From Bacteroidota bacterium (GTDB lineage: Bacteria; Bacteroidota; Ignavibacteria; Palsa-1295), in contig JAUZNX010000004.1 in NCBI GenBank assembly GCA_030706745.1, positions 124,001 to 188,000 on the forward strand: a DNA stretch of 64,000 nucleotides. The letters run 5' to 3'. Under the pieces are notes generated by a model. The model saw only the letters and a program-made list of their open reading frames with translations. It was not told the DNA's origin and ran no database searches. Positions within the stretch are counted from its first letter, which is position 1. Every line of letters begins with the position of its first letter. Positions 15,900 through 62,085 of the stretch are shown in pieces. A program made the translations under genes and the position numbers.

Positions 15900-15902
15900 G
15901 AG

Positions 15903-16041
15903 TCAGAACCGGGATTTATGAGATATTCGGGATGAATGGGATTTTGTGCTCGGAACGTTCCTTCATTTGCGGGATGAATCGCAATAGCGGACATGTTAAC
16001 CATCTTGCATATCCCAAATATCTCATAAATGCCGATTCTGA
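15903..16041. repeat. Short inverted-repeat element, copy A
   Basis: 139-bp element with 31-bp terminal inverted repeats at 15903-15933 and 16011-16041, matching at 28 of 31 positions. The arms start TCAGAACCGGGATT (left) and TCAGAATCGGCATT (right, read inward) and both continue ATGAGATATT then GGGAT. It fills the entire divergent gap between the hemerythrin gene and dut: the left arm starts 3 nt before one start codon and the last base of the right arm is the A of the dut ATG. It encodes no protein. The ends relate to copies B and C. Confidence 0.75.
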
Positions 16042-16518: not shown

Positions 16519-17556
16519 GTGCCCCTCGTCCACGATAAAGTAATCACGATCGAGCGCCACATCATCGAGCAGCAGGCCAGCGCCGATGCTGAACGCTCTG
16601 ATGGTGCCACGGGCGATTTCTCCGCGCTACTGCGCGATCTGACGCTCGCATTCAAAATCATCAACCGCGAGGTCATGCAGGCCGGTCTGGTCGATGTGCT
16701 TGGCGCCACAGGCGATGTCAACGTGCAAGGCGAGATCGTCCAAAAGCTCGATGCCTTTGCCAACACGGTGATTTACCGCGCCATGGACCATGGTGGGCAT
16801 CTCTGTGGCATGGCCAGCGAAGAAGACCCGGATATTCTGCCAATCCCAAAAGATTACAAGTGTGGCCGCTACGTACTGCTGTTCGATCCACTCGACGGCT
16901 CTTCGAACATCGATGTGAACGTCTCGATCGGTACGATCTTCTCGATTCTTCGACGCGTCACGCCGGAGGAAACCCACGGTACGCTCGACGACTTCCTGCA
17001 ACCCGGCTACAAGCAAGTGGCAGCGGGCTACACGATCTATGGGCCTTCGACCATGCTGGTGTACACTGCGGGTCGCGGCGTATTTGGCTTTACGTATGAT
17101 CCCTCTGTCGGGGAGTTCTTGCTTTCACATGATGATATTCGGATTCCACAACACGGATCGATCTACAGTGTGAACGAAGGCAATTACCATAAGTGGGATT
17201 CGCGCGTTCAGCGGTTTATCGACTGGGCAAAGATGGATGTGCCCGACGAGCGCAAGAAGGCGTATTCGCTCCGGTATATTGGCTCGATGGTTGCGGATGT
17301 CCATCGGACGTTACTTTATGGCGGCGTATTCCTCTATCCGGCTGATGTGAAGAGTCACAAAGGCAAGCTCAGGCTGCTATACGAAGCCAACCCCATGTCC
17401 TTCGTGGTTGAGCAAGCCGGCGGCAAAGCGAGCGATGGTTCGCAGCGTGTACTGGAGATTCAGCCCGAGCATCTGCACCAGCGGACACCACTTATTGTTG
17501 GAAGCCCAAAGAACGTTGAAGAGGTAGAGAGATTTTTGAACGGGGATTACAGTTGA
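16519..17556 (+). CDS. fbp: Fructose-1,6-bisphosphatase, class I
   Basis: 345 residues. It dephosphorylates fructose 1,6-bisphosphate in gluconeogenesis. The metal-binding signature [19 protein letters not shown] is present, with the substrate loop around [11 protein letters not shown] and the C-terminal GGKASDG. The start is GTG at 16519. The last residues (NGDYS) and the stop codon fall in sequence that matches the ends of the neighbouring inverted-repeat element, so the original C-terminus may have been altered by insertion. Confidence 0.95.
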
Positions 17557-17708
17557 ACCGGGATTTCACGGATTGAGGGGGATTACGTGGACGATTTTTC
17601 GGATTGTCCTAGTGACGATCTAAGTACTTCTTAGTGAGTAAAACACGCTGGCACTTTAAGCGAAAACAAAATCCTATTAATCGTCCGCGTAATCCTGGTT
17701 CTGAATTA
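17554..17708. repeat. Short inverted-repeat element, copy B
   Basis: About 155 bp. The left end TGAACCGGGATTTCACGGAT starts at the fbp stop codon; the right end, read inward, is TCAGAACCAGGATTACGCGG and abuts the stop codon of the convergent gene. A second partial left end, TTGAACGGGGATT, sits just upstream at 17536 inside fbp. The interior is AT-rich, non-coding and unlike copies A and C. It occupies the whole gap between the two stop codons. Confidence 0.65.
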
Positions 17709-57457: not shown

Positions 57458-58240
57458 ATGCGCCGCTATGCAACGTTCGTTTGCCGTTGCAGAATACCAG
57501 TTATCCCACACACCGCATTGTTCTCACCGTCGATCGGCCCGCTGCTTTATGGCTTCGCGCTCCTGCTGCTGTTCTTCGTGCTCATGAATGCCGACCGGCG
57601 GTTTCGTGAGCATGTGAGCCGCTCCATGCTCCGCCCTTTCAATTTTTTCGCGGACCTACGCGATCGCCGGCTGCTGCCGAACGCCCAAACGACCTTGCTG
57701 GCAGTGATCCTTTCCGGCTCGGCGGCGCTGTGTCTGGGCGCGATCCTTCGGCATGTTTATGCGCTGGAAGCGACCAGAAATGCTGCCGGACAAGTGCTGC
57801 CGGTCGGGCTGCGCTCCTGGGCGCAGTCGGAAGATGGGAGTTTCTTCGGCATGGTGCTCTGGCTCACGCTGATCGTGCTCACGGTGATTCTCTTTATGGT
57901 ATTGGTGCTCCGGTTTATCGCGATCTTCAGAAAGGGCCGGATCATGATCGGGGACACGTACAATGTCGTTGTCTGGTCAGCGCTTCCCATTGTGGTGCTG
58001 TTGCCGTTCGATTTACTACTGCCCCGAATGGATGTGGAATTGAAGACAATCATACTCGCCGTGTCGATTTTGGTCGTGCTAATCCTTTGGGTGTATTACC
58101 GGCTGCTCAAAGGTGCGGGAGTGCTTTTCGATGTCTATCCGGCACGGCTGTACATTTATGGAACGTTCGCCTTGCTTGTCGTTACGATTCTTGTGCTTGG
58201 CTACCTTCAATCGCTTCATATCCTGTCGAATTTTCGATGA
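57458..58240 (+). CDS. Multi-spanning membrane protein of unknown function
   Basis: Up to 260 residues with five or six hydrophobic helices (for example GPLLYGFALLLLFFVL, TLLAVILSGSAALCLGAI, MVLWLTLIVLTVILFMV, IILAVSILVVLILWV, TFALLVVTILVLGYL). No family recognised. The frame opens 13 nt after the terminator, so the start is uncertain; a TTG at 57518 just before the first helix or an ATG at 57584 may be correct. The stop codon is the first base triplet of inverted-repeat copy C. Confidence 0.65.
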   Translation: MRRYATFVCRCRIPVIPHTALFSPSIGPLLYGFALLLLFFVLMNADRRFREHVSRSMLRPFNFFADLRDRRLLPNAQTTLLAVILSGSAALCLGAILRHVYALEATRNAAGQVLPVGLRSWAQSEDGSFFGMVLWLTLIVLTVILFMVLVLRFIAIFRKGRIMIGDTYNVVVWSALPIVVLLPFDLLLPRMDVELKTIILAVSILVVLILWVYYRLLKGAGVLFDVYPARLYIYGTFALLVVTILVLGYLQSLHILSNFR

Positions 58241-58455
58241 ACGGGGATTCCGCGGATTAACGGGGATTCCCCGGATTGATTTTTGGGATTCTTCGCTTGT
58301 GATGGTTGCCGTAGGATTGCTCGAAGTGAGGTGATGAGAATCTGCGAACGGTTTTTTCAGGAAAGACTTTGCCCTGGCTTGGGTTCAAATAGCGAGCTCA
58401 ATATCCTGCAATTTGTCTGGGAGATCCCCATTAATCCGCGTAATACAGGTTCTGA
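58238..58455. repeat. Short inverted-repeat element, copy C
   Basis: About 218 bp filling the gap between the membrane-protein stop and the smc ATG. The left end TGAACGGGGATTCCGCGGAT starts with the stop codon TGA and is followed by another GGGGATTCC. The right end, read inward, is TCAGAACCTGTATTACGCGG and continues ATTAATGGGGAT; its outer base adjoins the smc ATG. The interior is non-coding and unlike copies A and B. Confidence 0.65.
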
Positions 58456-61400
58456 ATGTATCTATCAAAATTAGAAATCATCGGGTTTAAGTCATTCGCG
58501 CAGAAGACTCTGCTGAAATTCGATGCCGGTATGACCGCAATTGTCGGTCCCAATGGCTGCGGCAAGACCAACGTGGTCGATGCGATCCGTTGGGCGCTTG
58601 GCGAGCAGAGAGCCAGCACGCTCCGCAGCGATCTGATGGAGAATGTCATCTTTAATGGGACGCGGACGCGCAAGCCCCTCGGCATGTCGGAAGTTTCTCT
58701 GACCATCGAGAACACGAAGGGTATTTTACCCACGGAATACCGCGAAGTGACAATCACTCGCCGATTATTCCGCTCCGGGGAGTCCGAATATTTGCTGAAT
58801 AAGGCGCAGTGCCGCCTGAAGGACATTATCGAGCTCTTCATGGATACCGGCATGGGCGCCAACGCCTATTCGGTGATCGAACTGAAGATGATCGAAACGA
58901 TCCTTTCGGACCGCACCGAAGAACGGCGCAAGCTCTTCGAGGAAGCAGCCGGCGTCACGAAATACAAAGCTCGCCGCAAGGAAGCGCTTCGACGGCTGGA
59001 GCAAGTCGCGCTGGATCTCTCTCGCGTGGATGATATTGTCAAGGAAGTGACGAAATCGGTCGCGACGCTGGAGCGGCAGGCCGAGCGTGCCAAACGCCAC
59101 GCGGAGCTATCCGGCGAATTGCGGTCGCTCGAGATCGAACTGATCGAGCGCGAATTCGCCCAGCATATTGGGCGGATGAGTCCGTTGCGCGAGGAGCTAT
59201 CCTCGGCGGCAAATCAACGCGATCAAATTACGGGCGAACTTTCGAAATACGAAGCATTGCTCGACGTACTCGAGCGCGAAGAGCACGATTTAGAAGCACA
59301 GCTTGCATCGGGCGACCGCGCTGTCCACGAAAAATCCGCGATCATCCAGCGGACCCGCGAGACGATTGTAGCTACCGAGGAGCGTCTCCGTTCACTCGCC
59401 GAACAACGTGAGCGTGCGACGACAGAGCGTGAGCGACTCATTCTCGAAAAGCAAGAACTGACCGAGCGGCTCTCCGTGATCGGCACCTCGCATGAGGAAG
59501 CGACTCGCAATCGTGCTGCGATAGAGGATGAGATGCGGGAGAAAGAGCAGATCAAGTCCCAGGCGGACGATGTGCTCCGCGCCAAACGTCAGGAATTGTC
59601 GAAGGCGCGCGATGAAGTCTATACGCTTCTGAATCTTCGCAACCAACGCTCGAACGAACTCGAGCGCCGGCGCGCCCGGTCCCACGAGATCGAACGTCGC
59701 CTGGCGCATATCGAAGCGGAACAATCCGGCATCAGCGGAAAGCGCGAGACACTCGAAACGCAAAGCACGGAGCTTGCCCGTGAACTCGAGACGGCCAATG
59801 CCGCCGTTGCCGCCGCCGAGCAAGAGGGGCTCGTGGCACAGGACCGAAAGGAGCAACTCAAAACCGAGTTAGACACGAAGCAGAACGAGTCCTTCGCATT
59901 GCAGGGCGAAATTGGCAAGAAGATCTCTAAGATCGAGTTTTTTACAAGTCTTGTGGAACAAGGCACCGGCGCTGGTGAAGCCGCGGAATACCTGATGGCT
60001 GAGCCTGGCTGGGCCTCACAAGAGCCGATCATGGTCGCCGACGCATTCACCACCGATGCGGCCTACCGCGCCGCGTTTGAAAGTGTATTAGGCGAAATCG
60101 CGTATTATCTCATCGTCCCCACAAGCCGAGATGCGTTCGAAGCCGTCGAAGTCCTTCGGCATTCACAAAAGGGCAAGGCGACTTTGGTCGCGCTCGATCG
60201 AGTGCCGGCTCCCACTGAAGCCTTGAGTCAGGGCGCGGTTTCCACTGGTGCGAGGCGCGCGCTTTCGCTTGCCAAGTTCGATGAGAAATATGGCAATCTT
60301 TTCCAACTCTTGCTGGGAAGCATCGTAATCGTCGATACGGTCGATCAGGCCTATGCCACGCTGGATGCGGATCGATCGGTCGAACGATGCGTAACGATCG
60401 AGGGTGAAGTCATTACACGTCAGGGTTTCGTCCGTGGCGGATCGCGTAAGAGCACCGAAGGCATCGTAATTGGCAAGCGCGAGCAGATCGAAGAGCTGGA
60501 GATTGAAGTCGAGAATCTGAAAGCGCAACTGGAGATTTGCGAGCAGCGCGTGGCAGAGCTCAACTCGGCATTTGAGGCGATCAATATCCGGGCAGCGGCG
60601 GCGCGAACTCGCGAGCGCGAGGAAGCGCGACGCGCCGTACAAGTGCGATCCTCCCAGGTCGAGTACGAACTGCGTCGCTCGCTCGAACAGCTTAACGCGC
60701 TCGGTGAGGAAGCGGGGCGGTTACGCAATGATCTTACTCCACTAACAGAATCACTGGCCGCGATTGCCGGTGAAGTTGCGGAGTTCGAGCGGCAGCATTC
60801 TGAAGCGATGGAGGGCGCCGCGCGTTCGCAACTCGCTGTCGAAACGGCCGAACAATTGCTCGCCGATGAATCGCGCCGCTGGACCGAGGTGCAAGTGCAC
60901 TACGCGGGGCTTTCGAGTGAGATCACACGTCTGGAATCCGAGCGCCTGGGTGCCGAGCGTGCTATTGCATCGGCCACGCAGCTTGCGGAGCAACGCGTTC
61001 GCGAGCGAGAGCGCGCTGAGACCGACCACGTTGAGCATACAGCGAAGCTCGAGACGTTTCGCACAATGCTGACCGGCCTTGAAGCAGAGCTTGCCAGTGC
61101 TACCGGGCAACGCGACGAACTTGCTGAAGCCAAGCGGACCAAGCAAGCGGAAGCACATACATACCGCGAGGCCCTGCGCGAGGAACGCGCCCGTCACAAT
61201 AAGACGATTGATATTACCCACGAACTTGAACTTAAGCTCCAGGAGATCGAGCAGAAGGTCCAGGCCCTTCGCGAGCGTGCCGCACAGGAGTTCGAAATCC
61301 TTTCGCTCGAACTGAAGTCGTTTGTCGAAGACGAGACCGGCACTGAAGGCGAAGCATTCAGCTTTGGAGATGCGCGCGAAAGTGTGCGGGAGCTAAAGCA

Positions 61401-62085
61401 AAAGATCAAGAACTTGGGAGCGGTCAATCTTTTGGCTTATGATGAATTCCAGAAGGAGAGCGAACGACTCCAATTCCTGACTGCACAGCGCAAGGATCTG
61501 AACGATGCGCAAAGGAATCTCGCAGAGACCATCGAAGAGATCAACCAAACCGCTACGCGCCAGTTTGTTGAGACATTCGAGGAGGTGCGCAAACACTTCC
61601 AGGATATTTTCCGGTCGCTTTTTGCAGAGGGTGACGAATGCGATCTCAATCTCGAAGCCGACAAAGATCCGCTCGAAGCACAAATCGAAATTACGGCCAA
61701 GCCACGAGGCAAGCGCGCTCAGTCCATCGACTTGCTTTCGCAAGGCGAGAAGACTATGACGGCAATCGCATTACTTTTCGCGATTTATCTCGTCAAGCCG
61801 AGTCCATTCTGCATCTTAGACGAAGTGGACGCACCGCTCGATGATTCAAACATCGATCGCTTCCTCACGATCATTCGCCGCTTCGCGCAAAACACGCAGT
61901 TCATCGTCGTGACGCACAACAAGCGCACGATGGCCGCCGCCGACGCGCTCTATGGCGTGACGCAGGAAGAGGACGGTCTCTCGAAGATCGTCAGCGTCCG
62001 CCTCAAACGCGAAGGGATGATCGTTCGTGGTAAAGGCGCCGAAGCGCAGGCAGTTTTGGCGGAAGAGTTGCTCGAAGCTGCATAG
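58456..62085 (+). CDS. smc: Chromosome segregation protein SMC
   Basis: 1209-residue condensin ATPase that compacts and segregates the chromosome. Walker A is GPNGCGKT at 31-38, followed by two long coiled-coil arms (about 170-500 and 670-1010), a hinge between them (about 510-660, with EGEVITRQGFVRGG), and the C-terminal head with the ABC signature LLSQGEKTMTAIALLFAIY at about 1092 and Walker B CILDEVDAPLDD at about 1118. No scpA or scpB is adjacent. Confidence 0.97.
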   Translation: MYLSKLEIIGFKSFAQKTLLKFDAGMTAIVGPNGCGKTNVVDAIRWALGEQRASTLRSDLMENVIFNGTRTRKPLGMSEVSLTIENTKGILPTEYREVTITRRLFRSGESEYLLNKAQCRLKDIIELFMDTGMGANAYSVIELKMIETILSDRTEERRKLFEEAAGVTKYKARRKEALRRLEQVALDLSRVDDIVKEVTKSVATLERQAERAKRHAELSGELRSLEIELIEREFAQHIGRMSPLREELSSAANQRDQITGELSKYEALLDVLEREEHDLEAQLASGDRAVHEKSAIIQRTRETIVATEERLRSLAEQRERATTERERLILEKQELTERLSVIGTSHEEATRNRAAIEDEMREKEQIKSQADDVLRAKRQELSKARDEVYTLLNLRNQRSNELERRRARSHEIERRLAHIEAEQSGISGKRETLETQSTELARELETANAAVAAAEQEGLVAQDRKEQLKTELDTKQNESFALQGEIGKKISKIEFFTSLVEQGTGAGEAAEYLMAEPGWASQEPIMVADAFTTDAAYRAAFESVLGEIAYYLIVPTSRDAFEAVEVLRHSQKGKATLVALDRVPAPTEALSQGAVSTGARRALSLAKFDEKYGNLFQLLLGSIVIVDTVDQAYATLDADRSVERCVTIEGEVITRQGFVRGGSRKSTEGIVIGKREQIEELEIEVENLKAQLEICEQRVAELNSAFEAINIRAAAARTREREEARRAVQVRSSQVEYELRRSLEQLNALGEEAGRLRNDLTPLTESLAAIAGEVAEFERQHSEAMEGAARSQLAVETAEQLLADESRRWTEVQVHYAGLSSEITRLESERLGAERAIASATQLAEQRVRERERAETDHVEHTAKLETFRTMLTGLEAELASATGQRDELAEAKRTKQAEAHTYREALREERARHNKTIDITHELELKLQEIEQKVQALRERAAQEFEILSLELKSFVEDETGTEGEAFSFGDARESVRELKQKIKNLGAVNLLAYDEFQKESERLQFLTAQRKDLNDAQRNLAETIEEINQTATRQFVETFEEVRKHFQDIFRSLFAEGDECDLNLEADKDPLEAQIEITAKPRGKRAQSIDLLSQGEKTMTAIALLFAIYLVKPSPFCILDEVDAPLDDSNIDRFLTIIRRFAQNTQFIVVTHNKRTMAAADALYGVTQEEDGLSKIVSVRLKREGMIVRGKGAEAQAVLAEELLEAA

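Follow-up and report, generated by a model that had tools for sequence, protein, structure and literature searches.

A gene-less inverted-repeat element fills the gap upstream of smc in an Ignavibacteriae genome and shares its arm class with GxxExxY loci

Results

Three inverted-repeat elements lie between genes in a 64 kb window

The window, that is, the whole 64 kb stretch of DNA that was analysed, comes from a Candidatus Kapaibacterium/Ignavibacteriae MAG (3.81 Mb, 30 contigs; G000). Its smc product is 94% identical over 400 residues to that of Candidatus Kapaibacterium sp. Chersky.7_45 (L101), the nearest named record, and the remaining near smc relatives are Ignavibacteriae/Bacteroidetes MAGs. 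The gap between the stop codon of a membrane-protein ORF and the ATG of smc is filled exactly by an element designated copy C (Table 1), which consists of ~48-nt arms in inverted orientation (GAACGGGGATTCCGCGGATT.../GAACCTGTATTACGCGGATT...), identical to each other at 30/43 positions, flanking a ~115-nt non-coding loop. The initial annotation had the left end beginning with the stop of the upstream gene and the right end adjoining smc, and both hold: the TGA that terminates the membrane-protein ORF is also the beginning of TGAACGGGGATTCCGCGGAT, and the right end, which reads TCAGAACCTGTATTACGCGG in the inward direction, ends in a TGA (58453-58455) directly before the smc ATG. ORF inspection of the loop revealed no GxxExxY ORF, and no Rfam match above gathering score was obtained for the window.

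Table 1. Coordinates of the elements and adjoining genes, in positions of the window
Feature	Position	Strand	Comment
Copy A	15903..16041	.	Whole spacer between hemerythrin-like gene (-) and dut (+)
Copy B	~17537..17704	.	Between fbp (+) and convergent gene (-)
Upstream membrane-protein ORF	57458..58240	+	Element supplies 3' end; start codon uncertain
Copy C	58238..58455		Between membrane-protein ORF and smc
TGA, stop of membrane-protein ORF	58238..58240	+	Its GA opens the element end GAAC
Left arm of copy C (GAACGGGGATTCCGCGGATTAACGGGGATTCCCCGGATTGATTTTTGG)	58239..58287	+	Arm profile R1, 46.1 bits, E 2.8e-12
Loop of copy C, non-coding	58288..58403	.	Partly aligns with the loop at the equivalent G001 site
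Right arm of copy C (reverse complement GAACCTGTATTACGCGGATTAATGGGGATC...)	58404..58452	-	Arm profile R1, 40.1 bits
smc	58456..62085	+	ATG directly after the element's terminal TGA

Copies A and B occupy a divergent and a convergent gap, respectively; in a simple repeat finder run on the window, copy A alone stood out as an inverted pair. The initial annotation had placed all ends of the three elements within 3 nt of gene borders. All three copies exist and five of their six ends fit, the exception being the fbp end of copy B, where the ORF extends ~17 nt into the left arm and has its last codons and stop (17554-17556) inside the arm. At the dut site, the spacer of congeners is 47-61 nt and lacks an element. 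In three of them (G002, G003 and G004) this divergent spacer between dut and the hemerythrin-like gene (compared at L302-L307) contains a GGGAATATATTCCC palindrome, which is missing where copy A fills window positions 15900-16041.

The arms form a repeat family with at least two subfamilies

The arms belong to a repeat family. This bacterium has dozens of short inverted-repeat elements, copy C among them, that fill inter-gene gaps exactly. Allowing at most one mismatch, the end motif occurs 66 times in the genome, compared with 11 occurrences of a reversed control. A profile of the arms (R1) was built from sequence only, and it matches both ends of copy C, which carries terminal inverted arms of the GAACCNGGATTACGCGGATT class. 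Among at most 150 scored candidates per genome, R1 arms number 50 in G000 and 97, 1, 87, 45, 18 and 109 in the congeners G001 to G006, that is, 18-109 in five of the six congeners. G002, which has the single R1 match, holds a second subfamily (GAACCTTGATTTTATGAGAT; 23 matches vs 0 for the control) that is also frequent in G001 (34) and G006 (11) and has the ends GTCTGAAC...GTTCAGAC. An arm consensus of 40-50 nt and conserved GAAC ends are common to unlinked loci and to different species.

An unbiased palindrome scan of 849 kb, which is poor at detecting long-loop elements, returned mainly short-loop palindromes. Intergenic palindromes of other words (AGTTGATAGTGGATAG, ATCGGTCAGATC, AGTGCTGAGTGCTA) were seen at G000:C1:276427-277113, C1:599901-599966, C2:87272-87352 and C2:144796-144876, several of them at most 10 nt from gene borders, and a run of N lies at G000:C1:182464-184428.

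Elements are confined to spacers and fit gene borders closely

Placement was analysed in an 849 kb sample (C1, part of C2 and the window) using codon-usage gene calls, which gave a coding fraction of 0.81-0.88. All 14 R1 elements in this sample are intergenic, even though genes take up over 80% of it, showing that the family is confined to spacers. The close fit to gene borders suggested by the initial annotation holds genome-wide when distances are measured. For the 18 two-armed elements with a resolvable partner arm, pooled from G000 and congeners (L273 was left out, its partner arm having been wrongly paired), the median spacer left over was 7 nt vs 302 nt under length-biased random insertion into spacers taken from G000 only (0/20000). 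With distances measured from the GAAC ends to gene borders at which the called start codons are uncertain, 20 of the 36 element ends lie at most 6 nt from a border, compared with 7.4 expected from random placement in random spacers (p ~1e-4). Many start codons are 0-12 nt from element ends, and by our own count 21/28 stop-type borders have a TGA, TAG or TAA in or overlapping the arm.

Arms create or merge with stop codons and native spacer is lost

Comparison with congeners showed that the stops of neighbouring genes either fall at element ends or are created by them. At the smc site an element is present in G001 and none in G002, G005 and G006; the membrane protein ends ..SNFR* here and runs on to ..NFSFVSSVLRAVAA in G002 and ..NFSPATPLVGRGA in G004, i.e. 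the upstream C-terminus is truncated at the element relative to congeners without it. In G001, which has no element at fbp, the C-terminus is FLNRSASR* and the stops of fbp and the convergent gene overlap, whereas in G000 FLN is followed by arm-derived GDYS*, a replaced C-terminus; the fbp target contains the microhomology GAACC. At the glnA site arm codons extend the upstream C-terminus: the native ends are ELNK* and ELTT* in G004 and G005, which lack an element, and the gene ends in arm-encoded EPGLR*, TEPRLHG* or SEP*, or in the TGA of TGAACC, in G000, G001, G002 and G003. At prfA, secY and an aldehyde-dehydrogenase site the arm starts exactly at the stop codon and protein length is not clearly altered.

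At the dut and smc sites and, in part, the glnA site, some or all of the native spacer is absent; at dut the 47-61 nt found in congeners, including the GGGAATATATTCCC motif present in three of them, is gone. The fit is therefore not due to insertion alone, and part of it is explained by element-supplied stops together with loss of native spacer. The initial annotation had offered two explanations, insertion targeted to start or stop codons or selective removal of all other insertions. A real preference for stop codons is possible, and spacer loss does not fully account for the exact fusion to unchanged stops seen at prfA, at secY and at the aldehyde-dehydrogenase gene; the choice is nevertheless incomplete, as arms make or merge with the borders and native spacer disappears. 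The elements alter or set the stops of neighbours (fbp and the genes before glnA and smc) and replace spacers, and in this way they influence where proteins end and how far apart genes lie. No enrichment of Shine-Dalgarno cores was seen in front of starts (54 vs 55 of 459 genes; 22 vs 9 for longer cores), so that abutment to an ATG would be tolerable.

The smc spacer carries different repeat types in other congeners: that of G004 (L190) has unrelated word repeats of the AGTGCTAAGTCCTGAG type, and that of G003 (L184) has AATTAAGAATTAAG and a REP-like palindrome.

The same arms enclose GxxExxY genes

GxxExxY proteins occur commonly, and to our knowledge no function has been attributed to them. 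PF13366 genes are present in 44/61 relatives, and inverted arms (score of at least 30) flank 39/46 GxxExxY loci across the class, compared with 2/135 size-matched control genes (p ~4e-21). Within the genus, arms of the copy C class enclose GxxExxY genes at four loci (L082, L083, L089 and L093), and arms of the subfamily 2 class do so at two (L085 and L092). The arms of the former four recur without an ORF in the same genus (L319, L346, L182 and L299); in G001, for example, ACCACGATTACGCGGATGATGCGGATTCGCAGGATT at the GxxExxY locus L083 is shared with ...GGATTCTCAGGATT at the gene-less L319. Upstream of obgE, one site is occupied by a GxxExxY element in G004 (L088) and by gene-less elements in G003 and G006. 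Within the genus, elements with and without the gene thus share arm sequences and in some cases lie at one and the same intergenic position. Judged by its arms, copy C is related to the elements that carry GxxExxY (PF13366) genes but has no gene itself. The initial annotation had mentioned similar intergenic repeats, sometimes around GxxExxY genes, in Bacteroidota and relatives, and the enclosing arms bear out this kinship.

The GxxExxY protein matches TIGR04256 and is assigned via Pfam (PF13366, PDDEXK_3) to the PD-(D/E)XK nuclease superfamily, a placement that is predicted from sequence; a sequence search returned no homologue of solved structure. One GxxExxY gene was found in G000, and its arm words differ from those of copy C. 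The location of their genes within a repeat family that has numerous gene-less copies makes GxxExxY proteins testable as mobile-element enzymes.

Orthologous elements keep matched arms while their loops diverge

Elements are present at the smc, purC, prfA and P12 sites in both G000 and its sister species G001, and the smc junction of L101 is identical to that of G001. Copy C is therefore old here. The smc-site loops of G000 and G001 are 81% identical over 37 aligned positions, a short stretch; for prfA and P12 the loop parts that align are 74-77% identical, and loop homology is weak at purC and was also recorded for P10. Despite diverged loops, the arms within well-preserved G001 elements are identical at 44/44 (prfA), 43/45 (purC) and 41/44 (smc) positions. 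Of 27 variable columns in the GGATT subfamily, the two arms of one element agree at 21.1 and shuffled partners at 13.2 (0/5000); the 23 elements compared were preselected for at least 28/42 matching positions, which somewhat inflates the within-element figure. In subfamily 2 arm matching is weak (6.05 vs 5.26), so homogenisation is not general and arm matching was rejected as a general rule.

Loops of non-orthologous elements show no similarity to each other. There is consequently no sign of recent copying of whole units, and transposition of this kind was rejected as an explanation. Among 20 elements of subfamily 2, a sister subfamily of that of copy C, no target-site duplication of at least 3 bp was found above chance, and 2-bp duplications showed a weak excess at one offset (7 vs 2.7). 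At map/secY, the elements of G000 and G001 (L320, L321) share a site but differ in word class, and therefore replacement or repeated hits also occur. The possibility that loops are native spacer inside added arms was raised by the P12 loop of G003, which aligns with an arm-less spacer in G005; it was rejected because that spacer contains inner-arm remnants (ACGATTTACAGGATG), and the G005 spacer is better read as a putative decayed element.

Quasi-palindromes are known to be corrected by template switching (PMC8794818). Such correction would give matched arms, as would selection for a hairpin, and the combination of matched arms with diverging loops offers a natural setting in which the template-switch repair of palindromes can be measured.

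Discussion

We consider it probable that copy C belongs to a family of inverted-repeat elements as an old, non-autonomous member without a gene, that its fuller relatives carry GxxExxY between the same arms, and that the family reached its present distribution by spread, survival at gene edges and loss of spacer. Copies would have spread through the GxxExxY enzyme acting in trans on the arms. Only insertions at gene edges would have survived because the arms hold stops in most frames, and abutment to an ATG may be tolerated as the genus hardly uses Shine-Dalgarno sites. Redundant native spacer would then have been lost, and template switching that corrects the quasi-palindrome (or hairpin selection) may be what mainly keeps the arms matched while the loops drift. 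Copy C itself is probably immobile in this genome, since its arms are decaying and the sole GxxExxY gene found has other arm words.

Insertion could instead be actively targeted to gene borders, for example by an enzyme or RNA intermediate that recognises a TRA stop beside an accessible transcript end. We regard this as unlikely: arms that begin at stops of unchanged position (prfA, secY, aldehyde dehydrogenase) and the majority of ends within 6 nt of a border agree with it, but targeting of native stops does not predict a stop inside the arm with a changed native C-terminus (smc, fbp, glnA), native spacer is missing at dut and smc, and start-start (copy A) as well as stop-stop (copy B) gaps are occupied. 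Slightly less likely again is a host regulatory role for the hairpins, kept by selection as terminators, mRNA stabilisers or promoters, with a secondary link to GxxExxY. Tandem, convergent and divergent gaps are all occupied, the word class at P7 differs between sister species, congeners lack an element at the same site, and one arm class ranges from 1 to 109 copies between congeners among the matches listed. These observations stand against the persistence of orthologous copies across species and the pairing of arms that is kept while loops drift, both of which a regulatory role would account for; the fold of copy C points both ways, being stronger than shuffles as RNA (z -2.6) and not significantly so as DNA (z -1.5).

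An origin without any mobile element, by template switching in place with growth halted at coding sequence, appears very improbable. Template switching both makes and corrects inverted repeats (PMC8794818), which would suit arms that match within an element and loops that are specific to a locus. However, growth in place cannot yield a 40-50 nt arm consensus with GAAC ends common to unlinked loci and species, and complete genes lie between the same arms.

Palindromic, MITE-like and short-word repeats at gene borders are already known kinds (PMC3733652, PMC2229807, PMC4679880). REP elements and REPtrons are GTAG-tagged palindromes with RAYT transposases (PMC3733652). Like the present family, they are multi-copy intergenic palindromes, often near or overlapping gene ends, with proposed mobilisation in trans by an associated enzyme; unlike them, our elements have ~48-nt arms, a loop of more than 100 nt and an associated gene of the PD-(D/E)XK type, as predicted by Pfam, in place of a tyrosine transposase. 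The GTAG tetranucleotide is absent at the element ends, which are TGAAC/TCAGAAC or GTCTGAAC. Bacterial MITE-like sequences (PMC2229807) share the terminal inverted repeats, the multiple copies and the gene-less copies of an apparently larger element, but the present elements have no known transposase and arms of GGATT words, and those of subfamily 2 showed no target-site duplication of at least 3 bp; the ends of copy C match GxxExxY elements, and GxxExxY is not a known transposase. The TAACTGA repeats of marine Beggiatoaceae (PMC4679880) are likewise short-word and intergenic, lie beside start codons, overlap upstream stops and supply stops, whereas they are direct 7-nt repeats, essentially without inverted arms, for which no associated gene of the GxxExxY kind was reported. 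Among the closest counterparts are GxxExxY loci themselves (TIGR04256/PF13366), in which genes lie between inverted arms, in this genus with the arm sequence of copy C, although copy C and most copies are gene-less. No account of GxxExxY arms or of gene-less copies was found in the literature searched, mostly outside subscription journals, and neither the family nor its fit to gene borders appears to have been described so far.

A small ORF enclosed by inverted arms is also characteristic of 23S rRNA intervening sequences with S23/four-helix-bundle genes (PF05635), which differ in gene, in their ~7-nt words and, in classic cases, in their rRNA location. Copy C has no PF05635 ORF between its arms, and its words differ from the ~7-nt four-helix words. 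Intergenic four-helix loci whose arms are word repeats are numerous in the same genomes, and 14/18 four-helix-bundle loci have inverted arms. Tentatively, and with rather less confidence than in the reading of copy C favoured above, GxxExxY proteins could be the dedicated enzymes of a class-wide, undescribed group of mobile elements with ~9-nt tandem-word inverted arms at gene edges, concerted arm evolution and many gene-less copies, including C, with four-helix-bundle (S23-like) genes running a parallel system of ~7-nt words. A sub-class of the four-helix-bundle loci with 7-nt-word arms adjoins tRNA-like sequences, as judged by eye, in three genomes (L205, L207 and L208).
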